A DNA stretch of 64,000 nt from Liolophura sinensis (taxonomy: Eukaryota > Mollusca > Polyplacophora > Chitonida > Chitonidae). A program made the position numbers and the translations under genes. How positions within the stretch are numbered: position 1 is the first letter of the stretch; each line of letters starts with the position of its first letter. Under the pieces are notes generated by a model that saw nothing but the letters and a program-made list of their open reading frames with translations, had not been told where the DNA came from and made no database searches. The DNA lies in the NCBI RefSeq assembly GCF_032854445.1, contig NC_088302.1, positions 7,559,338 to 7,623,337 of the forward strand, read 5' to 3'. This document shows positions 4,521 to 59,500 of the stretch, in pieces.

Positions 4521-4576
4521 TCCCTCCTCAATGAGACACGTTTGCAACATTCTATACTACTAATGTCCAATTACTG

Positions 4577-4607
<31 letters not shown>

Positions 4608-4832
4608 TTGGTGTTTTACGCCGTACTCAAGAATATTTCACTTATACGTCGGCGACCAGCATTATGGTGGGAAGACAGAGCCCGGGGGAAACCCACGACC
4701 ATCCGCAGACCTTCCCACGTACGGCCGGAGAGGAAGCCAGCATCAGCTGGACTTGCACTCACAGCGGCCGCATTGGTGAGAGGCTCCTGGGTCATTTCGC
4801 TGCGTAGCGCGCTAACCACGGAGGCCCCCAGC
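4577..4832 (-). mobile_element. SINE-A (tRNA-derived SINE), near full length
   Basis: Reverse orientation: the TTTATTT tail comes first, then attggtgttttacgccgtac, the conserved central block and a tRNA-like head ending near gctaaccacggaggccccc. The same family recurs throughout the window and is of the kind common in molluscs. Its 5' head resembles a tRNA gene (box A-like ggctcagtnggttagcgcg in the forward sense). Confidence 0.85.
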
Positions 4833-5221: not shown

Positions 5222-5860
5222 TTTCTTTAGTTATTTGAGACACTGTCCCTTTGTGATCATTAGTTATTTGTGACATAGTCCATGTGTGATCATTAGTTAT
5301 TTGTGACACAGTCCCTGTGTGATCATTAGTTATTTGTGACACATTCCACGTGTGATCATTAGTTATTTGTGACACATTCTCTGTGTGATCATTAGTTATT
5401 TGTGACACAGTCCCTGTGTGATCATTAGTTATTTGTGACACAGTCCCTGTGTGATCGTTAGTTATTTGTGACACAGTCCCTGTGTGATCATTAGTTATTT
5501 GTGACACAGTCCCTGTGTGATCGTTAGTTATTTGTGACACAGTCCATGTGTGATCATTAGTTATTTGTGACACAGTCCCTGTGTGATCGTTAGTTATTTG
5601 TGACACAGTCCATGTGTGATCATTTGTTATTTGTGACACATTCTCTGTGTGATCATTAGTTATTTGTGACACAGTCCCTGTGTGATCGTTAGTTATTTGT
5701 GACACTGTCCATGTGTGATCATTAGTTATTTGTGACACAGTCCATGTGTGATCGTTAGTTATTTGTGACACAGTCCCTGTGTGATCATTAGTTATTTGTG
5801 ACACAGTCCCTGTGTGATCATTAGTTATTTGTGACACTGTCCCTGTGCGATCATTTAAAA
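5222..5860. repeat. 33-bp minisatellite, about 19 units
   Basis: Units such as tgatcattagttatttgtga followed by cacagtccctgtg repeat about 19 times with few substitutions. Because 33 is a multiple of three, the minus strand stays open and reads as an 11-residue repeat (SQITNDHTGTV). It has no splice signals, no upstream exon and no likely start, so I do not call it a gene. Each unit holds a small hairpin, cacag-tcc-ctgtg. Confidence 0.9.
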
Positions 5861-16928: not shown

Positions 16929-19900
16929 ATGGAAACGACAGAAAGCCCGGTTAAAAGGAGAGCAGAAGGAAGAGGGCAATGGAAGCGTCCAATAGAATTC
17001 ATCCTCTCGCTGGTGGGTTTCTGTGTTGGAATGAGCGGTGTCTGGAGGTTTCCGTACTTAGCCATGAGGAACGGCGGCGGTGAGTGCTCGGAACTAATTC
17101 ACACCTTTTTGGCTGGAATAAACCCCGTCCAGGCTATCAAACATCGTTCAACTTTTGCTAGCTCAACAGCAAACTGAATGCTGTTGAGCTAAGTAGAGCG
17201 CCCCGTCCACACTACAAATCAGATAGGTCAACATTGTCCTACACTGTTGTCGTGTGTTGAGATGTGTTTTTTTTAGCAAATTTCCGATAAATTGGAGGGA
17301 AATTTCCATCTTTCTCTCCAATGCATGAGATACAATGACTTTCTTTAATCCTTGTCTTTGCAATCTTGTAATCTTGTAGAGAGTGTTATACAGACAAGCA
17401 TATTTTTCATACTCCTGTATCAACAAAACTGTCTTCTCGTAAGACCAGTTTCATAAGACCAGTTTCTTAAGAAGGTCACGTGATTGCCTACTTTCACTCA
17501 ACTTTACTCAATTTGTTGACAAAAAATACACATGTACATTTCCCATTCAACAATGTTGGATGGTGTTGAGTGTCTTTGAATGAAGTTGAAGAACCCGTCC
17601 AGACTACTTAACACGGCTCAACACAAATACATTTCTTTTAGCATTTTTGAACAATGTCAAAACCGCAGACCTTCATATACCAGCCCTCAACCAATATGGA
17701 CGTTCCTAGTTAATAATCACAAAAAGGTCAATCCACAAAGATAACGTTGAACAAAAACCACCAAAGATCTAAAAAGTACGTAAAGTATGGAATGAACGAT
17801 TATGGCTTAACGCCATATCGGCAATATCTCAGCCATATCGTGGCGACGTAAAGTATGGAATGAAGAAGGATTTACGTCAGGAGAAACTGTCAAAAGTTTT
17901 CAATGTTGTGTGAGTGAGCGAGAGGGGTGGGAGTTGTACCCCAGACTATGTACATGGTAACACTGTATACTAGTGGTAAATCAGGTGGGACAGAAAATAT
18001 AAATAATAAATGGGGCTTTCAATGATAAAGGAATGCGAAAGGTAAGTAAACAAATCAGACGTTTGGAGGCCGGTATGAAAGCTAAGCCTTGACCAAAGAT
18101 CACATGCAGCCAGGAATTAACTGGAACCATTACAATATACTGTGACTTGTTTGGACAGGAAAACTGGTGTCTGCCTTATGACGTATTAGTCACATACCGC
18201 TCTAACAATGGTGGCTTTGGAATATTCTCCAATGTCATCATGATAACATATATGGCATTAAACCAAAAGGAAACAATCTTAATAAATAGCTTAATCTTTG
18301 ACTTTTTTCAGGTGCGTTTTTGATTCCTTACGCCGTGTTTGCTGTTGTTGTTGGGATCCCGTTAGTGTTCATGGAAACGGCTTTAGGGCAATATTTCCAG
18401 CTGAGCCCCCTCCTCGTCTTCAACATGTGTCCATTATTTAAAGGTGATTCTTTATATACTTAGAAGTGCTGAGTTTTAGGACAAAAGAACAGAAAGCACC
18501 CTATTAGCTGCATGTATAAATAAGTGAAACATTTTTTCCTCAGTTCGATTTCAATAGCCACGCGTGACTATTTGCTAATTATCTCTAGTTTTACTTTTCA
18601 TACTGTATAATTTTGTATTTTATCCCAAATGCCCTTGTTTTAGATAATAAAAGGCTATACAATACAATACACTGACAGAGAGGACTTCCCTGAAGTGTAT
18701 ACGTTTAGGCTCCCATGAACCAGAAAGAGTTTATTTGTGTATTTATTCATACTCAATTATATTTCACTTCCAATATACACGAAGGTGATCAGCATATATG
18801 GCAGGCGGAAACTGGGCAGAGCCCAACGAAAATCCACGTATAGAAGATCTTACCACGTATAGACCTATGAGAGGAGAGGAAGCCATCTTCAGCTGGACTT
18901 GAACTCACAGTGATCGCATTGATGAGATGCTCCTGGGTCAGATCAAGTTCACTATCTCTGGAAATATGAAAACCAACAGTAACGTATATTCATTCGGATT
19001 TTCTCTATTCAAGGACTTGGCATTGCAACAACGTTGGTGTCATACCTTGGCTTTGTCTACTATATGGTGATCCTGGCTTGGACGCTTTACTTCTTGGCCA
19101 TGTGTTTCACACCAGTCTTGCCCTGGACAACGTGTGATCAATCTTGGAATACAAACTCCTGTGTACCGCTGTTTAGGGAATCCAGCGACAATCTGGAGAA
19201 TATGTCTGTCATCAGACAATTTCCCGCCAATGTAACAGGAACAATGGCCACTGAAGAGTTTTGGACGTAAGTATTTTAAATCTGAAATCCGTTGTGCGCG
19301 GATAGGGACGGATGTATAGCTTTTGAAACTGCCTTGGATTGTTTCCCAACAGAAAGTGTTTCGAAACACAATGGCAATCACGCATTAAGTTTGTTGTACA
19401 TATTTCCCCTACTCATATAATGAAGACAGCTCGAAACCATGCTTTGTCTCTTTCTAGTTTTACTGGCTTGTTAGTTCATTGGCTATATCTTTTAAACAGG
19501 AACATGTCGTGCAGAAATGTTTAAATGTCACTGTTTTCGGTGTACAGGAATAATGTGCTGCAGATTTCGTCTGGTATCGAGGAACCTGGGCGCATTCCCC
19601 TACATTTGTTCCTAGCTCTAATGGCAGCATATGCTCTTGTGTACGTTTGTATCTTCAAAGGAATAGAGTCGTCGAGGATTGTAAGTGGTCTCCTGTAAGA
19701 CAGACTAGAGTGGATTTGCACTGGATAGTTTTAATAGAGGAACGTTTAAAATATTAGTAATTTAAATCTAGGCGTCGAATTAGACGTTCGTATACAAATC
19801 ATCATCCTTTAATTGACGTTCTAGGTCAATAAATCACAAGATACATTTCTAAAGCAACCTTCAACATAAATCACCACAGAATTAATTTTTCTTCTGTGGA

Positions 19901-22900
19901 AACGATTCCATCGTCATGAATAAAAAATCTTGTTTGGTGTTTGGCGCCGTTTTTGCAAACAATTCATTACGATATCAAAAAACTGTAAAAATGCTGCCAA
20001 AATCTTGTAACAAATATGGTCTCCAATGTCTTGTTGAAAAATAAATTCCATAAAGATATCAAAAACTAAGAGTACAAATACCACTGAACTTGTGAACTGC
20101 TTGACTATATAAACGAAACTAACACATTACTTAACATGCTGTGTTACGTTTATGTAGCATGCTGTATATATCACACCCAGTGCCCCGTGTTCGCTGTTTA
20201 ACATACTGTGCTATGTTTTATGTTAGCATGCTGTGTATATCACACGCAGTGCCCCGTCTTCTCTGTTTAACATATTGTGTTATGTTTTATGTTAGCATGC
20301 TATGTGTATATCATACCCAGTAGCCCGTGTTCGCTGTTTAACATATTGTGTTATGTTTTATGTTAGCATGCTGTGTATATCACACGTAGTGTCCCGTGTT
20401 CGCTGTATAACATGCTGTGTTATGGTTTATGTTGGCATGCTGTGTGTATCACACGTAGTGGCCTGTTTTCGCTGTTTAACATGCTGTGTTAATGTTAGCA
20501 GGCTGTGCGTATCATACCCGGTGCCCTGTGTTTGCTGTTTAACATATTGTGTTATGTTTTATGTTAGCATGCTGTGTATATCACACGTAGTGTCCCGTGT
20601 TCGCTGTATAACATGCTGTGTTATGGTTTATGTTGGCATGCTGTGTGTATCACACGTAGTGGCCTGTTTTCGCTGTTTAACATGCTGTGTTAATGTTAGC
20701 AGGCTGTGCGTATCATACCCGGTGCCCTGTGTTTGCTGTTTAACATACTGTGCTATGTTTTATGTTAGCAGGCTGTGTATATCACACGCAGTGGCCCGTG
20801 TTCGGTGTTTAACATGCTGTGTTATGTTTTATGTTACTAGGCTGTGTATATCACACGCAGTGCCCCGTGTGCGGTATTTAACATGCTGTGTTATGTTTTA
20901 TGTTGCCAGGCTGTGTATATCACAGTTAGTGCCCCGTGTTTACTGCTTCTACTCCTACTGGGCTGGCTTCTTTCCAGGCCTGGCTCCACAGATGGACTGA
21001 TGTTTTACATCACTCCTCGCTGGGAGAGAGTCGCACATTTTCAGGTAACTCTCACACCTGGTTTTCTTATTCTGTCATTTTTTCAAAAAGTTCAAAGTTC
21101 AAAACTTTTCAAACAATCTTGTAACTTGTTAAATTGTTGTAAAACCGTTTATGTATGTGCCAGGGTAGTACATAATGGACAGTCATTAGTGTCTCTGCAC
21201 GTATTATGTATTAAAATTTGCTGTCGCTGTGAGTTCAAGTCCAGTTCATTTTGATTTGACACGCTTAATAAAAATCATCTTTTGTATAATGTTATAACTC
21301 TAAATAAGGCTTGTAACTCCCTCTAAAATTTCTGCCGCTACCTTTGAAAGATGCTTAATTTGTACCAGAGTGATTATCAGTTGCATCTTGACAGGACCCA
21401 ATATCATGAATTCTTTATCTACATTTTTACGTCCTATATAGCAGCACCTAGGGGCAGTTATTAAAAACTATGTTAAAAGTTAAACCAGGATTATATGTTA
21501 ATACCGGTTTTGGCCGCCCACAAAACTAAGGGGTTTTAAACCAGCATAAAGTTAATACCTTTGTCTTTTCCAATGTCAGTGAGGTAATGAGTATGAAACG
21601 TCACGCTTCCATGCTGTGTCACGCCAGCGGGAAGACAAAAACACAAATCTGAAATCATCACCTGGGATATTATATTCACTATAAGCACGCATGAAATGAA
21701 AATATTGCTGCCTAGTTCAAGGTTTTGTAACTTATTGCCTCTACTTGTACGGTACGTATTATGCGTTCATTTGTACTAAAGGCATTAAGTAAAGTAGGTC
21801 TACACATAAATTCTTCTATTGTAGCACAGCATAAAAAACACAGGTTCTCGTTTGCTTTGTGTCAGTGTACTGCGACTAACGAGAAGAATGAAATATTTAC
21901 TTATTTATTTATTTAACGTCATCTTCAAGAAGTTTTCTATTATATGATAGCGGTCAGTTTTAAGGTGGTGGAATCTGGAGTACCCGTTGTAAACCACCGG
22001 CTATTGGCAAGTTGCTGACAACCTTTCTCTCTTGAGACGTGCAGACATTCGCGCCATGTTGGTGGTAGACGAGTGGTCTTCAGCGATTGTAGGTTTAAAT
22101 GAAGACTTAGCAAACAGCGACACAAACGCCGTGTTAGTATCACTTGGATCTCCACGGGCCTTAATGCATCTCGATTGATTTATTTATTTGTTTGATTGGT
22201 GTTTTACGCCGTACTCAAGAATATTTCACTCATACGACGGCGGCCAGCATTATGGTGGTTGGAAACCGGGCACAGCCCGAGGGAAACCCACCGTTGCTGG
22301 CACACCTTCCCACGTACGGCCGGAAAGGAAGCCAGCATGAGCTGGACTTGAACTCACAGCTCCTGGGTCATTACGCGGTAACCAACTGAACCACGCAGCC
22401 CCCCCCCCCCCCCCCTCTGGATTGAGATTAGCACCATATCGCTGAACCATCGCAAAACGAAATATTGGGAACACCACAGCAATCAATCACTCAATCAGTC
22501 AATCAAGTAATCATGTGCAGCACAAAAAGCATAGTTAATTTTACTTATTAACTAGAGATTTAATACAAAGTATAAATACTTCTGGCTGGAGTGAAGCACG
22601 TGACTTCTTTCCTCGAGGGCATGCCCTTGGCATCAAGGTATCTCCACAATATGCTGAAATAGTTTTATCTTAAATCATTCATTTAAAGCATCAAAACGGT
22701 TATCATTGGTTTAATCATTTTTATTTTGACAAGTTGATTGTTCTTATTATATTGCCCATCGACAATGTGACACAAAAAGGATCATCTACATAATTTACGA
22801 GCTAAAAGGTTCGAGAAATCTTTGAAAAACTTTTATAGATTTTTATTTTTTTCCGAACAGCCTTGGTTGGAAGCCTTTCTCCACGTGTTTTACTCCATGG

Positions 22901-25900
22901 GACCAGGCTATGGCGGCCTTATCAACCTCTCCAGTTTCAACCCATTTCATCACAATTGTCTCAGGTCTGTTCATCTATATTAAAACTCTTCATATGATTA
23001 TATCTTTACAGCAGGCACGCCATACACGTCATAACCAGTAATATATTTAAATAAATAGGCACATTTGCCTTTATTTATAAATAAATAAACCAAATGGCAC
23101 ATGTATACTGCGTGTCAGCCACAATGGATGCTAATTCCAGGTCAGTAATGACAGTGTCATTTGTTAGACTTTATCTACAGATCTCACAAGTTTGAAGAAA
23201 TGTTAACCTGAATATTAAAAGTTGTGCTCTAAAGCTTGACGAGTTAAGACACACGTTTCCACATGTTGTAATATTTTCACCTTGTATTTTGTTTTGTACT
23301 TCCAGAGATTCTGTAATAGTTGTGATAGCAGACATCACTACGGCAATTTTCTGTGGCGCTGTTGTATTTGCTGGTGTGGGGTGCATCGCTCACCAAGCAG
23401 GGTTGCCCGTGTCTGACGTAATCACTGCAGGTAACACAGCAACATGTAAACGTAATGATTTGAAAATTTGTAGATTTAGAAATACTCATAAATGACAGTA
23501 ACCTCCAGGCACGGTAATCTTCAAGAGTGGGGTATCCTTCCCATGCGCTTAGTTAGTTAGCGCGCTAGCGCAGCGTAATGACCCAGGAGTCTCTCATCAA
23601 TGCGGCCGTTGTGAGTTCAAGTCCAGTTCATGCTGGCTTCCTCTCCGGCCGTACGTGGGAAGGTCTGCCACCAACCTGTGGATGGTCGTGGGTTTTCCCC
23701 AGGCTCTGCCCGGTTTCGTCCCACCATAATGCTGGCCACCGTCGTATAAGTGAAATATTCTTGAGTACGGCGTAAAACACCAATCAAATAAATAAATAAA
23801 TAAATAAATCATTTCCCAAGCAGTAGTAACTTGGGATCAAGCTGAATTATTGTTCTGCCAAAGCCATAAGCCGTCGTCACAAAGGCAAGAATGAACAATA
23901 GCTAACATACACTCAAAAAGTCATCTATTAATTTAACGGAAAGTCTGTCTGGTCTGTCTGGGTGATGGTAGAATGGATTCTGCTTTTGCAGCCGATTGTT
24001 CTATTAAATATAACACACATATTTCTTTAATTCAACATAAAGATATTATGTTGATTTGCAAAATAATGTGTTATAATAGCAGAATACATTCTAGCATAAC
24101 TCAGACAATAGACTCTGTGTTAAAATTTGGAGATTAATTTTTGGAGTGTACATGTAGCTTAGACTCAAGTAACTTCCTGATAAGCGGGACTAGTATACAC
24201 TTCTCAGATTGTTTTTCTTTTTGGCAAAACATGGCATATAATATGTAGGCATATATCCAAGTAACAAGGTTTTCGATGAGAAACAAAACAAAAACAATTA
24301 AATTAATTAATTAATTATTTAAAATTACTGTTTTCAAACACAAAGCTTGGTTAAAATGTGCATGGTGCATCAGTGACATTTGTGAGTTTCATTTCAGCTC
24401 GATTACGTCATAAAATACCACCCGAATAAAGAATTTAAAGAGCTGTTACCTTCATCTCTGTCCTCTGCATAACTTCTCGGCATTTCCTGGTCTATCAATT
24501 ATAATCTACCCTCATGCTGTGGCCTCGATACTTTGTCCGCGGGTCCTGGTCTATCAGTTATAACCTACCCTCATACTGTGGCCTCAATACTTTGTCCGCA
24601 GGTCCCTGCCTTTCATTTGTAATCTACCCTCATGTTGTGGCCTCGATACTTTGTCCGCGGGTCCTGGTCTATGAGTTATAACCTACCCTCATACTGTGGC
24701 CTCGATACTTTGTCCGCGGGTCCTGGTCTATCAGTTATAACCTACCCTCATACTGTGGCCTCGATAATTTGTCCGCCGGTCCTCGTCTATCAGTTATAAC
24801 ATACGTTCATGTTGTGGCCTCGATACTTTGTCCGCCGGTCCTGGTCTATCAGTTATAACCTACCCTCATACTGTGGCCTCAATACTTTGTCCGCAGGTCC
24901 CTGCCTTTCATTTGTAATCTACCCTCATGTTGTGGCCTCGATACTTTGTCCGCGGGTCCTGGTCTATGAGTTATAACCTACCCTCATACTGTGGCCTCGA
25001 TACTTTGTCCGCCGGTCCTCGTCTATCAGTTATAACCTACCCTCATACTGTGGCCTCGATAATTTGTCCGCCGGTCCTGGTCTATCAGTTATAACATACG
25101 TTCATGTTGTGGCCTCGATAATTTGTCCGCCGGTCCTGGTCTATCAGTTATAACCTACCCTCATACTGTGGCCTCGATACTTTGTCCGCGGGTCCTGGTC
25201 TATCAGTTATAACCTACCCTCATACTGTGGCCTCGATAATTTGTCCGCCGGTCCTGGTCTATCAGTTATAACATACGTTCATGTTGTGGCCTCGATACTT
25301 TGTCCGCCGGTCCTGGTCTATCAGTTATAACCTACCCTCATACTGTGGCCTCGATAATTTGTCCGCCGGTCCTGGTCTATCAGTTATAACCTACCCTCAT
25401 GCTGTGGCCTCGATACTTTGTCCGCAGGTCCTGGTCTATCAGTTATAACCTACCCTCATGCTGTGGCATCGATACTTTGTCCGAGGGTCCTGGTCTATCA
25501 GTTATAACCTACCCTCATACTGTGGCCTCGATAATTTGTCGGCCGGTCCTGGTCTATCAGTTATAACCTACCCTCATGTTGTGGCATCGATACCTTGCCC
25601 GCAGGTCTTGGTACACCAGTTATAAACCTATCTCATGCTGTGGCCTCGATGCTTTGTCCACAGGTCCTGGTCTATCATTTATAACGTATCCTCATGTTGT
25701 GGCCTCGTTGCCGGTTCCCCAGCTCTGGGCAGTATTCTTCTTTCTCTTGATCCTAACCCTCGGGCTGGACAGTCAGGTGCGTATTGTACTGAACAGTCAG
25801 CTGTATACTGCGCCGAACAAACAGCTGCGTGTTGCACTGAGCAGTTAGGTGCGTATTGCACTGAACAGCCTGCTGTGTATTGCACCGAATAGTCAGTCAG

Positions 25901-28900
25901 GTGTCTATTGCGCTGAGGAGGGAGGTGTGCATTTCACTGAGCAGTCAGGTGCGTATAGCACTGACACATCGCCTGGCCCTGGATCTCGAAATTGTTTACG
26001 GAATGAAACATGACTTAGTCCTAACTTCAAAAAAATAAAATAAATAAAAAAAAATTACCCCCCCCCCCCCCCAGAAATTACTGCCTTAAAATCGTGACCT
26101 ACCTTAAGATCTCTTATTTTAATGCTAAAGGTTGTCTTACTTGCGTGCAAGTCTATGTTTAAAAACTTCGGACTGTTTCAAGTCTACAACAACTTCGTAA
26201 TCTCGGGGATGATATTCAACGTGCAGTGTAGAAACAGAGCCGTTAAAACCTCTATAACACACAAAATGATAACATATCAAAAAGAGAGGGATCAGTGCTT
26301 TCTCTGCAGTCGTCTTCTATCTGTCTTCCGATGATCACCTGCATGACCTAGGCTTGATTATACTGAATGTTAAATATGGTCAAGATATGACAAGAATTAA
26401 TCATATATTTGCAATCGTACGTTTAGAATGACACAAACTATCTTGATTGTAGGCCTGAATTAAAGCAAGTTACAATTCATGGGAGAGCATGTAGGACTTT
26501 ATTTACTTCGTGATGTTCCTGTATTTTTTGTTCTGGCTGACTTATCCATTATCCACACACGGCAATTGCTCACAGTCTCAACGATTCGTATATAGCTAAA
26601 TAGCCTCCCGCGTCTCGCCCAACACGGTTATTTTGAAAAGAATAGGGACTCGTACAAATACCACTCCATTAATGTACAAATCACTTGACAACAACCTAAG
26701 AATACGTGACTTTTGCGTTTTCCTAACAAATATAAGCTGTAGGATGTAAACAATGTAAAATTGCGAGTAATATCGTCAAAATACCATTGACAGTTATATA
26801 CATTCTGATCTTTTATTTCTTTTGCAGTTTCACAGTTTTAGAACAATGGCTATTGTATATTTTTCCAAAACCATGAAGAAACTAGAGGTACAAACGCATT
26901 CGACTGTAAACAAAGCACAGAACAAATCACTAAGGTACATCATAACCTTAGAAAATTTTGCCGCCATTAGGTTGAGATTTTGCTGGTTAAACCTTAAAAA
27001 AAGATTTCCTCATGACACGAATTATGTTTTGCTTGCGGCAGTTTGCCATGCTCAAGACCGTCACTTCGGGTCTTATAGACCTCCATCCCCGGATGCTGAG
27101 AAGAAGACAGCCACTGCTCGTGTTCGGTGTGCTTACCGTGTCGATGGTACTCTCGCTTCCCTTTATAACACAAGTAAGTCATTCTTTTGTTTAGAATTTC
27201 TGTCCAGGCCAAATATGACTGATTGCTGTGTAATGTACAAATCAAATGATTGATTCAGTTATTAAAATACTTAATTGGTATCGCTAAATAGAATTTATTT
27301 TCAAAAGCATCATTAACTTTGGCATTATTAATGTATAAGTGGGGTTAATGTACATATATCTGCATGCAGAAGAAACCAAACAGCACGGAACTTGCTGCCA
27401 AGGCTGAACTGCGATTTACTAATGAAAATGTACAATATACATTGCCATAATGTACGGTGGCCCATATATAACATTTTCCTTTTTTCTTAACTTGTGTAAC
27501 TTTTTCTTAGGTTTCCGTTTGGATAAGAACGGTTTCCACCTGGGTGAAAACCTTTTCACCCGAGTGGAAACCTAAGAAAAAGTTACAAAAGTGAAGAAAA
27601 ATGTCGTATATGGGCCACCGTAATACTGCTATGCTTTCTGTAGGGAGGAATGTATGTCTTCCAAATCGTGGACTGGTATTTATCCATTTTCACCATCCTG
27701 ACTGCGGCGTTCTGTGAATGTATCATTGTCGGCTGGCTGTATGGTAAGATGTAGGATATAATAGCAGTAATTATATGGAAATTGAAATTACGAGTGGCTG
27801 TATGATAAGATGTAGGACATAAAAGTCGTAATTAGATGGAAATTAGGACTAGCTGTATGGTAAGATTTAAGGCATAAAAGGCGTAATTATTCGGAAATTG
27901 AGCCTGACTGTATAACAAGATCTAGGATATAAAAGTCGTAATTATATGGAAATTACCACTGGCTGTATGGTAAATTGTAGGATATGTAACTCGTAATTAC
28001 AAGAAACATGTGGAATTTGCTCATTAAAAATAACACCTCAATGAAATGTGCTTGAATATGGATTCCGTTTGTATCTCATTATATCTCAAGTTTATATTAG
28101 GAGCCCGACAATATAAACCATTCGCCGTGGTTTCGTTTGGCTCTTTTGCTCGTTTCGTTTGAACTAATGTCGGCAATTGAGTGGAAAATATCTCAGTGTT
28201 TAGTACAAACAATATACATATTAACTGGGTATGCCTGCCTGTTATATATTTCTGTGATTCGAAATCGTATTTACCTAAAACTAATTTTAATATGATCGTT
28301 TATATGGAAAAGCCTATCTTGCCCTGACTCCTGCTCGAGCAATTTGCTGATTTATTTTTCTCTCATTTTTTCAGGTAGAATTTGGATGTATCGTGAATGC
28401 TATGCTGTTGTTATTTTTCCTGTCAGGTGGAGAACGATTTTTAGGAAACATACGAGAGATGGGCAATTTTTGCCCAAACTGGTGTCTGCAGTTTATGAAG
28501 ATTTGCTGGCAATTTATTGTGCCCGTCTGTATGTTGGTAAGATGTAGAAAGTCTAGCAAGGGAGTGTTCATTGGTTGTAGGAGGCAAATTTATGCTACGT
28601 TAATTAAATCCTCTTCTTTTGCTATTTAAAAACATAAGGTTTGACCACAAAAGTTTTAGATGTGGCAGAATAAAGTAACAATTTTTATCGCAGTGGTGAA
28701 ATCTTTTTTTTTTTGGTCGGCCATTACCTACAAGGCAGCAGATAGATTACGGTTTGTTCTATACGAGCTCATTTGATTCAAAGCTGGATTATCTTTTGTG
28801 CTAACGGCATGTAACAATTAAACGTTTGGTCGACTATATAAGGCTAAACGCTGTCAAACTTATCGCAGTTTGAATGCTCTCAAAAAATCCTGTGTTAAAT

Positions 28901-30434
28901 CCATTCATAAGTCATGACTGATTAAATGTTCCTGGATCTACCGAATTAATCGTCCCTAATAACGAATCAATCCTTAATTAGGAACAGATTTACTCGTTAG
29001 ATCAACACAAACGCAATCAGTCATCTCTTAAGAAACGGATTTAACTGCAGATTTTTTTGAGTGTAGGAGACTCACTCTGACAATATACGCCTTACTTCCG
29101 TAGACTTAGACTTCAATGTGCAAATTGCTGAAGTAAAACACTGACTGTGGACATACATGTACATGACCCTTTGCATTGTTTCAATGTGATTTTATATTAC
29201 ATGTTATGACAACACGGTATTTTGAATATGCCTAGACAAGGGACGTCTAATAAATTGCCATTAACATCACTAAACTGTACCTAATTCTGTTTAAGCCATG
29301 GTTCTAGTCTGGGTGTAAATGTTACTATTTGTGGATTTACATTAGAATCAACAATTAGAATAAAACCCAAACTGACGTAAACTGAGAAGAGGCCGTATTT
29401 CATCGGTTACATGTGACCATTTGCCAGCTATGACAATGTCGTCTCTGCTCTGGCTTTTACTGTCTATGCTGCACGCTTATCACTCTGCCTGCTTTTCCCC
29501 TGTATGCTGTACGTCTATCATACTGTTGTCGATGCTCTGGTTTTACTCTATGCTATACGCCGATCACACTGTCGTCGATGCTGTAGTTTTGCTGTCTATG
29601 CTGTACAACTTTGATTACGAGTTACATCAGCTGATAATGTATCTACACTAATATTTCAACCTTCCATTTTTGGCGTTGAAGCTATTCAAATCAGAAACAA
29701 GCAAATGTAGATGAACGCAGTTTGATAGCTATGAATAAAATACAGAAAGAAAATTAAATGCTTTCTTTCCAGTTTGCGATCGTGGTAGCTATGATAAAAT
29801 TTCGCTCTCCGACTTATGGAGGTTACGTGTACCCTGAATGGACAAATGTGTTCGGGTGGATGCTAGCCATCAGTACTTCCGTACCAATTCCAGCCGTAAT
29901 GGTTTATAAGCTGATAAACGCCAAGGGAACTCTAAATCAGGTATCCAGAGCATTGCTCGGCAAATCTATGTTCTGGCCTCATTGTCAGCCTTAAACTTTA
30001 AGTCCAAAGGGATTCTCTCGTAATTAACAAATTTGGTGTAAAGTACTTGCTATTCTGATGTTTTCTGTAACGTACACATTATCTGGATTGTCAACAAGTG
30101 GTTTTATCAGGCAAACTACTGTAAAAGACGAATAATATGCAAATAAAGTAAACAAACTAAAAATAGGCACTCTACGTCGTTTGTTCGGCGAAAAGATCTG
30201 CATTAATTTTCGTTTATTTTGTCTAGCTAGTCACACATACATGTATTCTTTCAAGCACGCAAACGATCGCTTGCAGCAACAACGTATAACAAAGACGGAT
30301 CAATGTCTTATTTCCAACAGAGATTCAAGTCCACGACTCGTCCACAAATCGAAGTTAAGGGTGTGATGAAGGGCATTGAGATGGAGGAAGTGGACGGATT
30401 GAGCAAAAATGACGAAGGAGAGGTCATGTTGTAG
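16929..30434 (+). CDS. SLC6-family sodium-coupled transporter, gene A (13 exons, 589 aa)
   Basis: Secondary transporter of the neurotransmitter:sodium symporter family, plasma membrane, 12 helices. Exons: 16929-17079, 18312-18443, 19014-19266, 19548-19680, 20910-21044, 22861-22964, 23306-23430, 25664-25776, 27042-27173, 27644-27743, 28427-28536, 29773-29940, 30321-30434. All junctions are GT-AG and phases agree, giving 590 codons with TAG. Helix 1 holds [18 protein letters not shown] (33-50); helix 2 has IPY and ETALGQY; the second extracellular loop has C135/C144 and glycosylation sites N157 and N167; helix 6 has FYSMGPG; GLDSQ (378-382) fits the Na2 site. G34, where monoamine carriers have Asp, points to an amino-acid-like substrate. 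Unusual: G37 replaces the Na1 Asn, D312 the second Na1 Asn, A316 the chloride Ser, H276 the chloride Gln. Exons 5, 8 and 10 abut tandem arrays containing their own splice sites. The substrate cannot be named. Confidence 0.9.
17655..17905 (+). repeat. R1 interspersed repeat in gene A intron 1
   Basis: Modules cttcatataccagccctcaa, acgttcctagttaataatca, acgttgaacaaaaaccacca and gtaaagtatggaatgaa followed by gtcaaaagttttcaatg match the other R1 copies. A short internal duplication (taaagtatggaatgaa twice) is present. Confidence 0.5.
18725..18945 (-). mobile_element. SINE-A, old copy in gene A intron 2
   Basis: Order is TTTATTCAT tail, atttcactt, ggcggaaactgggcagagcc, agaggaagcc, agctggacttgaactcacag, then ctcctgggtca. 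It is more diverged than the other copies, so probably an older insertion. Confidence 0.7.
19775..19885 (+). repeat. R1 interspersed repeat fragment in gene A intron 4
   Basis: gacgttcgtatacaaatca, acgttctaggtcaataaatc and acaagatacatttctaaagc correspond to the middle of the R1 family at 36208-36397. Confidence 0.5.
20161..20948 (+). repeat. 69-bp minisatellite ending in the exon 5 acceptor of gene A
   Basis: Unit starts at 20161, 20230, 20299, 20370, 20439, 20502, 20571, 20640, 20703, 20772 and 20841; the twelfth start, 20910, is the true first base of exon 5. Each unit has about 39 bp homologous to the exon start (gctgtgtatatcacacgcag and tgccccgtgtt) and about 30 bp homologous to the intron just before it. 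Units 4-6 were duplicated as a 201-bp block into units 7-9. Most spacings are 69 bp, a multiple of three, so long open frames run through. Several units keep an AG at the copied junction. Gene B has no such array at its exon 5. Confidence 0.9.
21897..22163 (-). mobile_element. SINE-C element in gene A intron 5
   Basis: A TTTATTTATTTA tail is followed by gtcatcttcaagaagtttt, gaatctggagtacccgttgt, ttggcaagttgctgacaacc and a head with gttagtatcacttggatct. Related sequence occurs at 56930-57200 (ttggcaagttactgaagaac). A third SINE-like family, directly followed by a SINE-A copy. Confidence 0.55.
22172..22403 (-). mobile_element. SINE-A in gene A intron 5
   Basis: Reverse copy with a short TTTATTTATTT tail, ggtgttttacgccgtactc, cagcattatggtgg, the central block and the tRNA-like head ending at a poly-C run (about 22400-22416). 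The head lacks part of the agcgcgctaacc segment. Confidence 0.85.
23545..23808 (+). mobile_element. SINE-A in gene A intron 7
   Basis: Forward copy: head gttagttagcgcgctagcgc, body ggcttcctctccggccgtac, ccaccataatgctggccacc, and tail ggcgtaaaacaccaatcaaa followed by (taaa)n. Confidence 0.9.
23910..24148. mobile_element. MITE family M1, copy 2, in gene A intron 7
   Basis: Ends read CACTCAAAAAG and the complement of TTTTTGGAGTG, each flanked by TA. Inner inverted segments (ttaatttaacggaaagtctg and gaatacattctagcataact) match copies at 47698 and 7272. Non-coding. Confidence 0.7.
24484..25706 (+). repeat. 59-bp minisatellite ending in the exon 8 acceptor of gene A
   Basis: Twenty units, starting about every 59 bp from 24484 (for example 24543, 24602, 24661, 24720), lead exactly to the true first base of exon 8 at 25664. 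A unit runs gtcctggtctatcagttata, acctaccctcatactgtggc, ctcgatactttgtccgcgg. The first 43 bp correspond to the coding start of exon 8 ([15 protein letters not shown]) and the last 16 to the pyrimidine-rich acceptor. Several units retain CGCAG|GTCC, a decoy acceptor. Because 59 is not a multiple of three, using a decoy would usually shift frame. Gene B intron 7 (350 bp) has no array. Confidence 0.92.
25768..25965 (+). repeat. 24-bp minisatellite starting in the exon 8 donor of gene A
   Basis: The last 9 coding bases of exon 8 plus the donor (gacagtcag|gtgcgtattg) form the first of about eight units of roughly 24 bp, such as gaacagtcaggtgcgtattg. At least two later units keep CAGGTGCGT or TAGGTGCGT intact. 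Exon 8 is thus bracketed by arrays at both splice sites, seeded from different sequences. Confidence 0.8.
26030..26075. repeat. A-rich then poly-C tract
   Basis: AAATAAATAAAAAAAAATTA followed by 14 C. Low complexity; possibly the tail of a lost element. Confidence 0.5.
27465..27620. mobile_element. Foldback MITE in gene A intron 9
   Basis: Nearly the whole element is an inverted repeat: cggtggcccatatataacat at the left is mirrored by the complement at the right, with inner arms aactttttcttaggtttcc and a short loop. TA flanks both ends, fitting a Tc1/mariner-type target. It would form a hairpin of about 60 bp per arm in the pre-mRNA. Confidence 0.8.
27735..28011 (+). repeat. 55-bp minisatellite starting in the exon 10 donor of gene A
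   Basis: Unit starts at 27735, 27796, 27851, 27906 and 27961. Unit 1 contains the last nine coding bases of exon 10 and its donor (ggctgtatg|gtaagatgta); units 3 and 5 keep tatggtaa, while the others have changed the donor. The remainder of each unit is intronic (taattatatggaaatt). Confidence 0.85.
28877..29063. mobile_element. MITE, M1-like ends, in gene A intron 11
   Basis: Left ctctcaaaaaatcctgtgtt plus aaatcc pairs with right ggatttaactgcagattttt plus ttgagtgta. The termini resemble family M1 but the interior (gatctaccgaattaatcgtc) is different, so it is a separate subfamily with shared ends. Confidence 0.55.
29460..29625 (+). repeat. Degenerate 46-48 bp tandem repeat in gene A intron 11
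   Basis: Four partial units around tatgct at 29465, 29503, 29549 and 29597, for instance ctatgctatacgccgatcac. No clear relation to an exon edge. Confidence 0.55.
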
Positions 30435-37788: not shown

Positions 37789-37962
37789 TGACGTGGCTGT
37801 ATAATAGATTCAGGGTCAGTAAAACAGAAGGTGGAAAGTGTGAAGAATCCGCCCATGAAACTTGGGCAAACACTGTGGATTTTCTCTTCGCAACTCTAGG
37901 GTTTGCCATAGGACTTGGAAATGTTTGGCGGTTTCCGTACGTGTGCTACCGAAATGGCGGAG
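37789..37962 (+). CDS. Lone SLC6 transporter exon coding for helix 1, altered donor
   Basis: A strong acceptor (tttatttccccctgctag) precedes an open stretch ending in the SLC6 helix-1 signature: [18 protein letters not shown] then [16 protein letters not shown]. Both Na1 Asn (GNVWRFP) and the amino-acid-type Gly are standard. Where relatives have GGAG|GTGAGT, this copy reads GGAGTTGAGT, so the donor GT is lost at the expected position; the only nearby GT lies one base upstream and would change the phase. No second exon is recognisable before the hydrolase gene at 43.2 kb. There is no in-frame ATG between the acceptor and the signature. Best read as a stranded, probably decayed duplicate exon; a non-canonical or alternative first exon is possible. 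Confidence 0.65.
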
Positions 37963-42443: not shown

Positions 42444-42760
42444 TGTGTCGTCTTTCACTGGTCATGCATTGGTGTATGTTTTTGACGGGTTTTGTAATTG
42501 TGTCAGTTTTGAATTCATCTCTGAATTTGCAAGTTGCTATATTTCAATGCGAAAACCATAGAGGCCTATCTAGACCTATACATTTCTGCTATGGACGATT
42601 ATGTGTCGTCTTTCACTGGTCATGCATTGGTGTATGCTTTTGACGGGTTTTGTAATTGTGTCAGTTTTGAATTCATCTCTGAATTTGCAAGTTGCTATAT
42701 TTCAATGCGAAAACCATAGAGACCTATCTAGACCTATACATTTCTGCTATGGACGATTAA
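42444..42760 (+). repeat. 158-bp tandem duplication
   Basis: Two nearly identical copies starting tgtgtcgtctttcactggtc at 42444 and 42602. The differences are a few substitutions, so the duplication is recent. It lies 450 bp upstream of the first coding exon of the hydrolase gene. Confidence 0.9.
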
Positions 42761-51579: not shown

Positions 51580-52158
51580 ACGATTTATTTATTTATTTAT
51601 TTCATTGGTGTTTTACGCCGTACTCAAGAATATTTCACTTTCAATCAATAAATCAAAAGACCAATCTTCTCGGCATAGGGCAAATAATTCAACATGATAT
51701 CTTGTGAACGGCTGGAAACCTCAGAAAGTATTCAAACATAGATGGAGCAAAGTTCAACCAGTGTCAAAAACACAACTTAGAAATGGGCTTATTTCACTTA
51801 TTCGACGGCGGCCAGCATTATGGTGGGTGGAAACCGGGCAAAGCTCGAGGGAACCCACGACCATCCGCAGGTTGCTGGCAGACCTTCCCCGTACGGCCGA
51901 AGAGGAAGCCAGCATGAGCTGGCCTTGAACTCACATCGACCGCATTGGTGGGTGGAAACCGGGCAAAGCTCGAGGGAACCCACGACCATCCGCAGGTTGC
52001 TGGCAGACCTTCCCCGTACGGCCGAAGAGGAAGCCAGCATGAGCTGGCCTTGAACTCACATCGACCGCATTGGTCGAGACTCCTGGAGAGACTCCAGGAG
52101 AGACTCCTGGGTCATTACTCTGCGCTAGGGCGCTAACCAACTGAGCCACGCAGGTCTT
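51580..52158 (-). mobile_element. SINE-A with inserted segment and internal duplication
   Basis: The tail and atttcactt occur at 51583-51642, then about 146 bp of unrelated sequence, then atttcactt again at 51791 and the rest of the SINE. The repeated atttcactt looks like a target-site duplication around a later insertion. Within the SINE body a 125-bp stretch (starting 51822 and 51947) is exactly duplicated. The SINE itself interrupts the satellite. Confidence 0.8.
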
Positions 52159-53592: not shown

Positions 53593-56500
53593 ATGAAATC
53601 AAAACGCGAAAATTCTGATAAAATACACAGAGGGCAATGGAAAAGGCCGATTGAATTCATTTTGTCTCTGGTGGGATTTTCTGTTGGGATGGGAAGTATA
53701 TGGCGCTTCCCTTTCCTGGCGATGAGAAATGGCGGAGGTAAGTGTGTATGTTCTATTCGCTGCTATTTAATGATTTCTGAGTTTTCAGAACTAATGAGTA
53801 ATTAACTTAACATCGTTGTCCTGGTTAACAGTAAGACACCACCAGGAAAATGATTTAAAATGTTCACTGAGAATCACATTTGCCAATAATAACACCAAAA
53901 AGCAGAATGGTCACAGCTGGCGCATTATGGTTGTGAATTCTGTTTGTTTTAAAATTATTTTAAACGCTTTGAAATGTAAGGTATAAGCTTAATGATCAAA
54001 AAGTGCAACGAAGATGTCCCCGGTTTACTGTCACCCTACAATGCCGGCCACCGTGGTATAAGTGAAATATTCTTGAGTACGGCATAAAAACATGAAGATG
54101 TCTCGAACATTTTTTACTCTAAACTGTAAGGGCTACCAGTACTTTCTTCATGCACCCTACAGGTATCAAGGAACCTTCGTGGCTCAGTTGGTTAGCGCAC
54201 TAGCGCAGCTTGATGACCCAGGAGTCTCTCACCAATGCGGTCGCTGTTGTGCTGGCTTCCTCTCCGGCCGAAAGTGGGGAGGTCTGTCACAACCTGCGGA
54301 TGTTTATGGATTTCCCCCGGGCTGTGCCCGATTTCCTCCCACCATAATGCTTGCCGCCATCGTATAAGTGAAATATTCTTGAGTATGGCGTAAAACACCA
54401 ATCAAATAAATAAATAAATAAATACAGGTATCAAACGTCCGCCTTGTACTTTTACGAGAGGCCTAACAGTTAGTGCAAAAATGACGTGTTTATAAAGAGT
54501 GGAACCTGTCTTAATATTTTGAGTTCGGCCTCAGCTAGCAACAACCCTGACTGAAATAAGGGTCTGTCTTTATCCATGATTTTGTTTTGCGGTATTTTCG
54601 GCTGCGATGAACCATCTTTATGGGAAGTTGTTCTCGGTATTTCACTTCTTGTTTGGTACAGTCTTCTTGTTCTTGAGAAACGTCGCACCTTAATGCAGCA
54701 CCTCGGTCATTTTTCATGTTAAGGTTTGTACGCACCATACAAGCTGCCAGCAGGGGCTGTCTATGTATTACGCATCCTCTGTACACTGTTAATAAAGCGA
54801 ATGTGAAACATTCAAAAGTTATCGTGACAGGCGAGTTAAAAACAGTAGAGATGTTATAGGATAACAGGTAGACGTTAATGAGAGATTGTTACTCAGATAT
54901 TTCTGCTTTGTATTTCTTCGGTGGATATGAGCGTTAGCTTCAAAGCGAGGCATGATATCGCAGTGACGGCAGGTCTTTGGCGGAATGGAGTCGCCAAAGC
55001 CCTGCTTCAAGAAGCACCTTAGGTGTGTGTACAAAGTATATACACACACCTAATACCATATGATTGACAAATTGTTTAGGTCGATTAAAAATCACTAGCA
55101 GTCATACGTACATAACACTCTAGGCAAGGTCGTGTAATTGGTACACTATGCAGTGCTCATTGAAAATACTCAATGTTTTCCACACGATGTAAATTGCAGG
55201 CCCCAAATTAATAAAGTATCCATTCCAAAGCTTAAGAAAATATACATGAGTGTGGAAACGCAAAATTTGTAACGTCATCAATTTCTTTTTTTTTAACACT
55301 CACCACTGCTCGTATTTGGATCTTTAGTATAAAACTAGTATAATTAGCAGCTGTGGAGAAATTCGGACAGACACAGGGTTACAGACATATTCCTTCCTGA
55401 ATACAGTTGGATGAGATTAGATTTCGTCTGAACGAAATCCTAACTCGTTTCAATGGAAATAAAGGGACTTTTTATATTATTAGTGGGATTTTAATTATGA
55501 ATTAAAGCTGTTACTCTTCCTTACAGCGATACGGGTGACCAAGCATCAAGGCCCAATTGAATGTCATATTATAAAACACTATGAAAGTAATCCGCTGAAC
55601 TAATTTGCCATGATCGGACAAATTAAGCTTCGCAAAACATCGCTTTACCAACAGATACTAATACACATAACGACGAATAGCTATATTCAACTGCCGAAGT
55701 ACACTGACAATGGAGAATGAACCACATTTAACCTGCATGTACAAATCGTAACAGTATTTACAAAAACAGTCAACATGGAGAAAAAATGGTTGCCTCTTAG
55801 CCAATGAGAGTCGTTAAAACTGTCGGCTTGTTCGTCATTTCTCGGTTTCAGTGACAAGTTGCCAACCTATGGGGTAGATTGCCTGCAACAGATGTATAGT
55901 TATAGACAGTTACCTCCAAAGTCTCTGTTAACTGCAGAGGCTTACATTTCTATTGCCGAAGTAGGGTGGTATCATTTAAATATTTTCTAGCGAGAAAACT
56001 ATAGATCGTAGCTCAAATCAGCTGGCATGCACCAGAAACTACATGTCATGGGCTACAATTTGGTAAAAGTCTTAGGTTTGTAGCTTTCGTAGTTCTCGAG
56101 TTGCAGGTAATTGAAATTATGTGACTGAAAACAGTTTTTGATTATATCTCAAAATTCAAATTCAGGCAAAATCCAACAGCAGAGTTGCCAAATACACCAG
56201 AATACATGAAAATATTATCAAACTTAGACACTTATTATGACGTCATGAGTTCGACCATTGGCTAGCTTCCAAAGTTTTCAATGCATGTCCAAGATTATTT
56301 CAAACTTGTTATAACTGAGGTCACCCTACAAGTGAATGAAATTTCAAAAGAATCCATGCGATTGTTCTTGAGAAAAAGATTTTTAAACGTTTCGATCAAA
56401 TCCAAGATGGCCACCATGTCACGTGACCAAAGTTAACCAAAAAGCAGCCCAAATTTGCCTCGTAACCTTATCCCAAATATCACCAAATTTCTACAGCATT

Positions 56501-59500
56501 CAACAAAAACTTCTCTTTTTACAGCTCTTAAACCGTTTAAAAAAGTGTAAGAAACGGAGGAATAATAATAAAAATCCGAACGATTTCAATAGGTGTCGAG
56601 TGCCGGGCCACCTAATTATCATCTCGATGCATCCCTCCGATGTCATTCTTTGTGGGGTCCTTGTCGGTACACGGGGGAAAGTTCGTCAGTATCTTGCCAT
56701 AGGTCGATGGTTTACACCGGACACTCGAGTTTCCTCCACCCATGAAACATGGCATAAGGGGAAAAGAAGTGAGTATTGTTTCACAAGAAGCAAACATCTA
56801 TAATAAATAAATAAATAAATAAATGGATTGGGACGTGCCATCAAGAGGAGTTGTCTTTCCCTTAACATGGTGATAGTGATGATCGGCATAATGGCGTGTT
56901 CTCGTTCTTATGGGGACTGAGTAATCTCAGGACCGGAGTGAGCGACCGACCTTTGGCAAGTTACTGAAGAACTTTCTCATGCTTGACGTACATATATGCA
57001 CACCATACATTGATTGAAAACAAATCGTCTGTGCCTGTGATAAGACTGCACGAGCGACCACATGACCATTATCGACAAGCTTATTGTCGCCAAGAACCAC
57101 AAACAGTTAGAGTGGGGTAAACATGCGAATTCCCCGTCCAACCCTGGGTTTGAACTTGCACCTCCTGTTGCTTGCCACTTGAAAGTAAGGATCTTAGTGT
57201 GCCATAACACCCTGCAGCACATTGTGAACTTTAACATGTTATTTATTGTCTTCTTCTGTATATTTTAGGTGCCTTTTTGATCCCGTACATTATATTTGCC
57301 ATTGTCATCGGCATCCCGGTGGTCTTCATGGAGACGGCGTTTGGCCAATATTTCAGACTCAGTCCACTTCTAATATTTGACGTGTGCCCTTTGTTTAAAG
57401 GTAAATATTTTTCGTAATACTCTTCCCTTTTTCTATAATGCCATGAGCCTCATTTGCTTAAAAATGGGTATTAATATTTTTTTTCACTTCGTAATACCTC
57501 GCCCATTTCCCTAACTGTGTTGAAAAACGTTGAATATTTCCACTTTATTTCCTCCACTGACTTTTGTTTTACTCCATAATAATCATTTGCTTACGTATTT
57601 ACTTATCTGATTGTTGTTATAATGCCATACTCAAGATATTGTTCTGTATTGCATGTATGACTTCAAAGGTAACCTTTATGATATTGCGCTGTATTGCACG
57701 TTTGACTTCTGAGATGATTATCATGATATTGTTCTGTATTGCATTATAGATTTAGAGGTGATGATCATGATGTTGTTCTATATTGCATTTTAGGTATTCA
57801 GAGGTGATTATTATGACATTGTTCTATATTGAATGTATGGATTCAAAGGTGATTATAGTGATGTTTTTCTGTATTGCATGTATGGATTCAGAGGTGATTA
57901 TTATTACATTGTTCCATATTGCATGTATGAATTCAGTGGTGATTATTATGATATTGCGATGTATTATAAGTCTTACTTCAGAGGTGATTTTTATAATATT
58001 GCGCTGTAATTCAGGTTTAGGGTACTCAATCACGATACTGGCGTTTGTGGGATATCTGTACGGAATGGTGATCCTCGCTTGGGTGCTTTACTTTCTGGCT
58101 ATGTCCTTCGCTCCTGTTCTGCCGTGGTCTACATGCCATAATCCCTGGAACACAAACTCCTGTGTCCCTCTGTTCCCTGACCTGTCTGGAAACGTCACCA
58201 CCACCATTGCGAACACAGCAAATCTCAGTGGTCATCTAGCTACGGAAGAGTTCTGGAGGTAAAGTGACCGACGATGTCAAACAATATTTCGTAGATATCT
58301 TTGACCACGAAGTGTTCAATAAAACTGTGACAAGTGTGAAAGTTGGCCATAGTTGTACGTAATGGGTAAAATCCGGCATCCTGTCAGTTTAACTCAGGTA
58401 GGATTTTATTCTAACTGTTCAACTAAATGCTTAATAAGTAGCATCCTACATGACCCTTAGTATCCCCTAAGGTAAAATTATGTAAGACGTTAGTGGTCTT
58501 GAATGATTAAAATGCAGCATGTGCTGTCATATTTAAACACACTTCTCTGTCAATCAGGCTATAGCGTATAAGCCGGCTTATATATACTTTCGGCAATCAT
58601 GCAAGTTAAAGTAAATAGTGGATACCTCTAGTCCTTTACTCCTGGTTCATGTCTTCGGATAAAACCATCATCGTGGCCGAAGTAGGCCAGTGCGGTGCAA
58701 TGACCCAGTAGCACCAGTAACCAATGCGGTCGGTGTAAGTTCACATCCGGCCCATGTAGGTTTCATCTTCGGTCGTATGTTGGTAGGTCTGCCAACAACG
58801 TGCGGATGGCCGTGGGTTTCCCCGAGATATTTCTGGTTTCCTCCCACCATAATGCTGACCGCCGTAGTACAAGTGAAATATTCTTGAGTACGTCGTAAAC
58901 CCAAATCAAATACATAGACAGCTAAAAACATCATCACAACGTCGCAATTGAACATCGCACCCCGATAGTGTTAATATTAGGGGGCGATGTCACAGTAACA
59001 TAATAGTGGAGAATTGTGGAAATGAGACCATCGGGAGCCAATATAACGACGCGATGGGGATGCGATGTTAGGTCGATGGCCATATCCAGCTTCCATATTA
59101 CCATTCAGTGCACTCGGGGTATTCGGCTATGTGTCTTCTTTTCTCATAGGTTCAACGTCCTTGAAGTTTCTGATGGCATAGACAACCCGGGCTCTCTACG
59201 ATGGCAGCTGGTAATAGCCATGTTCGTGGCCTTCGTTTTGGTGTACGTCTGTATCTTCAAAGGAATCGAATCCTCAAGAATAGTAAGTTAAGAGGGCCTA
59301 GATGGGGGGCTGGAAGAATGCAAGAGGCATATTAAACATGGCGTATAGTTATTTTTGAGCATTTAGAAAACACGAGTTGTTCAGGTAAAGACAGTGCACA
59401 CCGTAACTTACAGCTGTAGGCAACATTGGCTATGAACTAGGTAATTTGAAGTCTACAGTACTGTAGAATTAAAGAAAACATGTATTCATAGCCCACAAAT

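Follow-up and report, generated by a model that had tools for sequence, protein, structure and literature searches.

Mirage-like minisatellites at the splice junctions of an SLC6 transporter gene in the chiton Liolophura sinensis

Lancelets have minisatellites called mirages, whose units, 10-160 bp long and arranged in tandem, adjoin the real junction and cover a donor or an acceptor site; AG or GT is present in many of the copies, though not in all, and the copies are homogenised block-wise (PMC3087553, PMC3902484). The second of these articles adds PGBD5 as a mirage case and cites TnC. Internal tandem repeats at exon-intron boundaries have been reported for human paralogs in segmental duplications (PMC2812944), and a polymorphic intronic minisatellite is known from abalone, its contact with an exon not being stated in the accessible part of the source (PMC6905558). 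Here we analyse a window of 64,000 nucleotides from the chiton Liolophura sinensis (assembly GCF_032854445.1, contig NC_088302.1, positions 7,559,338-7,623,337 of the forward strand), in which four minisatellites of a single SLC6 transporter gene, gene A, each end in a true splice junction. It is probable (roughly 0.75) that these arrays are mirages, that is, duplications that straddled a junction, were amplified and were tolerated through the exon-proximal splice site. An earlier note on this DNA knew of nothing similar; the lancelet mirages share the architecture, which is new for molluscs as far as we searched. No mirage in molluscs was recognised in the literature on molluscs, on chitons or on the architecture itself, judged mostly without full texts, and the accessible part of a chiton genome comparison (PMC12005716) does not contain the terms tandem repeat, satellite, intron length or introns.

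The assembly was first published under the name Liolophura japonica, with 632 scaffolds, 609.5 Mb and 28,010 protein-coding genes and with RNA-seq for five named tissues (PMC11068029), and the species name was later corrected to L. sinensis (PMC12441733). Annotation by homology covered 264 kb, comprising the window and its surroundings, within which six SLC6 copies (A-F) and three copies of an AMP-binding gene (S1-S3; PF00501, Pfam) are clustered. Arrays were identified by Tandem Repeats Finder (TRF); the coordinates of the main features are collected in Table 1. Joined at canonical AG/GT sites, the homology exons of gene A form one frame of 552 codons without a stop, coding sequence beyond 29940 being outside the scope of the search. 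The product matches SNF (PF00209, Pfam, E 7.6e-162), and the solved structures closest to it are those of GABA transporter 1 (best PDB match).

On the acceptor side of gene A exons TRF called arrays at 20131-20940 (69 bp x 11.9) and 24485-25707 (59 bp x 20.7), and on the donor side at 25770-25964 (24 bp x 8.0) and 27733-27999 (55 bp x 4.7). Inside these arrays lie the acceptors of exon 5 (20909/20910) and exon 8 (25663/25664) and the donors of exon 8 (25776/25777) and exon 10 (27743/27744), with 31, 44, 7 and 11 exon bases, respectively, included in the TRF arrays. Both types of boundary are affected, two acceptors and two donors, and all four arrays have the true junction as their terminal copy; the TRF calls and the spliced frame bear out what the earlier note had said on this point. 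Unit lengths, 24-69 bp in gene A and 45 bp in an array of its paralog gene B, fall within the range of the lancelet mirages.

The state of the splice dinucleotide was examined copy by copy. Among non-terminal copies, AG is retained in 4 of 11 at exon 5 and in 4 of 19 at the exon 8 acceptor, and GT in three of six at the exon 8 donor, where seven copies were found, and in two of four at the exon 10 donor, giving 13 of 40 for the gene; the many decoy splice sites spoken of earlier were thus an overstatement. Use of these intact inner sites would lead to a premature stop in 12 of the 13. The only one of the 13 that keeps the frame, at 20841, would add 23 amino acids before exon 5 and might yield an isoform. 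Exact repeats of blocks of units (in the exon 5 array units 3-5 equal units 6-8, and in the exon 8 array units 1-2 equal units 6-7, numbered from 0) point to expansion after the founding event, and most copies differ from one another by several substitutions. Over the 44 nt at the head of exon 8 that belong to the array, the exon departs from the array consensus at four sites, at two of which gene B has the array state and at two the exon state (both by eye), so that exon and array have both changed since the array formed. When the genome was searched with the exon 8 unit, all of the matches listed (at least 20) lay inside the exon 8 array itself.

Gene B has its introns at the same places as gene A and bears no array at the four junctions that carry one in gene A; its exon 5 and exon 8 junctions had already been noted as array-free, correctly, and the same holds for its exon 10 donor. 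It has a junction array of its own at the exon 3 acceptor, overlooked in the earlier note. The last unit of this array runs into the AG at 58013-58014 and includes practically no exon bases, and TTCAG is retained in four of the eight other copies (by eye). Further junction arrays were found at the exon 10 donor of C, E and F and, by sequence, of D, whose exon 10 is not annotated (one of these arrays is 3.4 kb long, window coordinates -17011 to -13578), at the exon 5 acceptor of E and D, at the exon 1 donor of S1 and S2 and at the exon 6 donor of S3. By blastn (same strand, E 1e-3) the exon 10 donor arrays of C, D, E and F are alike in sequence, as are the exon 5 acceptor arrays of D and E and the exon 1 donor arrays of S1 and S2, which indicates that arrays persist through gene duplication; a comparison of the gene A arrays with the other junction arrays under the same settings gave no match. 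Some arrays sit in decayed genes, judging by frame damage in three SLC6 copies: D (-57352 to -46709) has a stop and frame breaks, and the frame is broken in exon 12 of E (-22858 to -22680) and in exon 9 of F (-12037 to -11899). Copy C reads without a stop. In total, 12 of 172 junctions are covered by arrays and one more, at gene B exon 3, has an array within 6 nt; for seven of the 172 the script settled on a position that lacks a canonical dinucleotide, and the position assigned to the exon 5 acceptor of D is improbable.

The claim that so many junction arrays would not arise by chance stood in part: there is an excess, but where introns are short an array has an appreciable chance of landing on a junction, and for the five arrays of gene A these chances add up to 0.64. 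Under our null model a single unit of length u may fall at any position within the intron or across one of its two ends. It was applied to nine gene copies of two families from the one 264-kb region, in which repeats with a period of at least 9 cover 17.7% of annotated introns (TRF), and arrays were counted at a unit of at least 20 bp and a TRF score of at least 80 (n = 38). Twelve of the 38 lie on a junction where 3.98 were expected (P 1.5e-4), and 8 of 33 without gene A (3.33 expected, P 0.01). When paralogous arrays were counted once, 22 independent events remained, grouped by hand and with rounded chances (blastn later confirmed the grouping of junction arrays only); nine of them are on a junction against 2.23 expected (P 7e-5), or 8 of 22 if the gene B exon 3 array is not taken as a hit (P 5e-4). 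Gene A was chosen for its arrays, so totals that include it are biased. Without it 5 of 17 independent events are on a junction against 1.59 expected (P 0.013), and 4 of 17 if gene B exon 3 is again not counted (P 0.059). Base composition was considered as the cause and rejected: exons have 47.9% GC and array-free introns 38.6%, and the excess remains under a GC-weighted null (11 of 31 against 4.56 expected, P 0.0015, with D left out and gene B exon 3 not counted; 4 of 13 against 1.72, P 0.073, for genes B, E, S1 and S3 alone). The excess is thus two- to four-fold, comes from few genes of one region and is weak without gene A and gene B exon 3. Arrays are not exclusive to junctions, as had been supposed, since 13 of the 22 independent arrays lie elsewhere and gene A itself has a repeat away from any exon edge, in intron 11. 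Nor does the evidence favour a targeting of exon edges as such: over nine events the exonic overhang is 0, 5, 7, 11, 13, 28, 31, 44 and 55 nt (Kolmogorov-Smirnov test against uniform, p = 0.19), and this scatter argues against a cut at any fixed point and against cutting or templating placed precisely on the splice site.

We favour an origin of the chiton arrays as mirages. A short tandem duplication would have happened to straddle an exon-intron junction, and its copies would then have multiplied by slippage or unequal exchange. If the exon-proximal splice site stayed in use, the protein would be unchanged and all further copies would be intronic; copies so freed could drift, many of them losing their AG or GT. 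We infer the origin by duplication and slippage, the use of the exon-proximal site and the selective tolerance; the intact 552-codon frame obtained with exon-proximal sites is compatible with undisturbed splicing. Given use of that site, every other copy is intronic by definition, so growth always outward into the intron, which the earlier note held to be a separate fact, is not one. The scatter of the overhang is as expected of seeds that merely straddle a junction.

Several observations weigh against this origin. Homogenisation of the lancelet type, sparing the boundary copy, is not clear in the chiton arrays, where the mean identity of the terminal copy is 0.81 (exon 5) and 0.85 (exon 8 acceptor) against 0.78-0.85 and 0.79-0.93 for the other copies. 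The array ends nearest the exon, taken over 31 arrays with D left out and paralogous arrays kept separate, lie 5-55 nt inside the exon in 11 cases, in the first 60 nt of the intron in one and in the next 60 nt in two; none of the 31 ends more than 60 nt inside an annotated exon. Finally, blind seeding does not predict nine junction events where 2.23 were expected, and GC content explains little of the difference. As sources of the excess one may think of exon edges being prone to such mutations, of a constrained anchoring copy making arrays last longer, or of the loss of arrays that begin a short way into the intron and interfere with splice signals. Overall, the interpretation given in the earlier note is partly supported.

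One alternative is a process directed at junctions, in which transcription, R-loops, spliceosome-bound nascent RNA or the step in composition at exon edges favours tandem duplication there. We regard it as unlikely. It would account for the excess that persists after GC weighting, and for the fact that separate SLC6 subfamilies carry unrelated units at the same two junctions, the exon 5 acceptor (A; D/E) and the exon 10 donor (A; C-F); by our arithmetic the chance that both sites of the second subfamily are among the four array-bearing junctions of gene A's 22 is 6/231 = 0.026. Against it stand the scattered overhang, the frequency of arrays elsewhere, and the P values of 0.059 and 0.073 obtained from the reduced samples. 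Equally tentative, and on balance doubtful, is the broader proposal that exon-intron junctions in this chiton are true hot spots of array birth, through a mechanism linked to transcription or splicing and shared with lancelets; mirages would then be a recurrent, animal-wide route of intron growth and a source of cryptic splice sites rather than something peculiar to lancelets.

Junction arrays might also outlast others if the extra exon edges and splice sites aided or regulated splicing, for instance through poison isoforms. Such selective retention seems quite improbable to us. The premature stops behind 12 of the intact inner sites of gene A and the in-frame insert behind the thirteenth would suit it, as would the retention of GT in 61 of 90 donor-side copies (eight arrays); set against unit means of 0.55-0.84, however, the dinucleotide is not clearly better conserved than the rest of the unit, AG in acceptor-side copies (12 of 40 in four arrays, a set different from the 40 copies of gene A) is below the unit means of 0.54-0.72, and the four junctions that bear arrays in gene A have none in gene B. 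The lower retention of AG than of GT would fit the first-AG rule, and selection against decoy acceptors was considered as a lead only, from a comparison in which the gene B exon 3 row is misaligned, the exon 8 acceptor array is entered with 21 copies (19 by the per-copy count) and the D arrays are omitted. It was rejected: AG is only the 12th lowest of 68 dinucleotides in the exon 5 array and the 12th lowest of 58 in that of exon 8, AG is retained in three of three copies in the exon 5 array of E, and copies are not independent.

An assembly artefact or chance alignment is very improbable. Repeats are a classic source of mis-assembly, and some units are exact repeats of others, but the PacBio HiFi reads (14x) have a mean length of 8,347 bp (PMC11068029), exceeding the largest array of the window (1.2 kb), most copies differ by several substitutions, and similar arrays occur in paralogs. 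Nascent introns or exons by tandem duplication, as in intron gain of the Rogers type, are a fate proposed for mirages in PMC3087553 and hardly credible here, where the introns concerned are old, their positions being shared by B, C and E.

Other features of the region were recorded in passing. Intron 9 of gene A contains a palindromic insert (27455-27620) with inverted ends of about CGGTGGCCCATATA / TATATGGGCCACCG, which resembles by eye a miniature inverted-repeat transposable element. A 33-bp x 19 array at 5227-5855, which its position assigns to intron 1 of SLC6 copy F, is not at a junction and has its minus strand open for 253 amino acids; a relative of it lies in intron 1 of C. At 37836-37961 there is a stretch resembling SLC6 exon 1, with no further matching exon listed before gene B. 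A dispersed element resembling a short interspersed nuclear element, with the motif GTGTTTTACGCCGTACTCAAGAATATTTCAC, was seen by eye at about 4570-4800, 22170-22400, 23560-23800 and other places; a 125-bp tandem duplicate at 51821-52074 is similar to it in sequence. The 158-bp direct duplication at 42444-42759, with 98% matches, is apparently recent. The 20 kb to the right gave no match to exons of SLC6 or of the AMP-binding gene, which we take to be SLC27-like. Beside the 29 arrays outside annotated genes a codon score called no coding edge, but its positive control passed the cut for only 3 of 12 known edges, which makes this negative uninformative.

Table 1. Gene models and tandem arrays in the window (window coordinates).
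Feature	Coordinates	Strand	Basis
Gene A, SLC6/SNF transporter, 12 homology exons	16929-29940	+	homology, GT-AG sites, PF00209
Gene A exons 1-6	16929-17079, 18312-18443, 19014-19266, 19548-19680, 20910-21044, 22861-22964	+	homology
Gene A exons 7-12	23306-23430, 25664-25776, 27042-27173, 27644-27743, 28427-28536, 29773-29940	+	homology
Array 1, 69-bp unit, 12 copies, gene A exon 5 acceptor; terminal copy is intron tail plus exon head	20131-20948	+	TRF, per-copy check
Array 2, 59-bp unit, 20 copies, gene A exon 8 acceptor, 44 nt of exon included	24485-25707	+	TRF, per-copy check
Array 3, 24-bp unit, gene A exon 8 donor	25765-25964	+	TRF, per-copy check
Array 4, about 55-bp unit, 5 copies, gene A exon 10 donor	27732-28014	+	TRF, per-copy check
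46-bp x 2.2 repeat, gene A intron 11, 166 nt from exon; internal counter-example	29503-29606	+	TRF
Gene B, SLC6 paralog; homology exons 1-9 in window, 10-12 beyond; exon 11 acceptor not placed	53629-64000	+	homology
Array 5, 45-bp unit, 8 copies plus junction copy, gene B exon 3 acceptor	57635-58014	+	TRF (57635-58008)

A mollusc with four mirages in one gene, with junction arrays in two gene families and with paralogs without arrays adjoining, allows a test of exon edges as duplication hot spots; the arrays also bear on how the splicing machinery deals with many almost identical sites in succession, and on whether introns lengthen in this way. Compared with the lancelet mirages, the chiton arrays have the same architecture, with the true boundary as terminal copy. 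They differ in their mollusc host, in the presence of four arrays in one gene and in having been counted here against non-junction arrays; for the lancelet mirages undisturbed splicing and somatic instability have been reported, while the chiton arrays are known here from one assembly alone. With the human paralog repeats they share minisatellite units at exon-intron boundaries and a setting in recently duplicated gene families. The human repeats stay in the exon or are spliced out and can make novel introns, whereas the intact chiton frame uses the exon-proximal site. The tandem duplication that copies splice signals, finally, is common to the chiton arrays and the Rogers model (cited in PMC3087553), with the difference that in the chiton it has lengthened old introns rather than created a new one.

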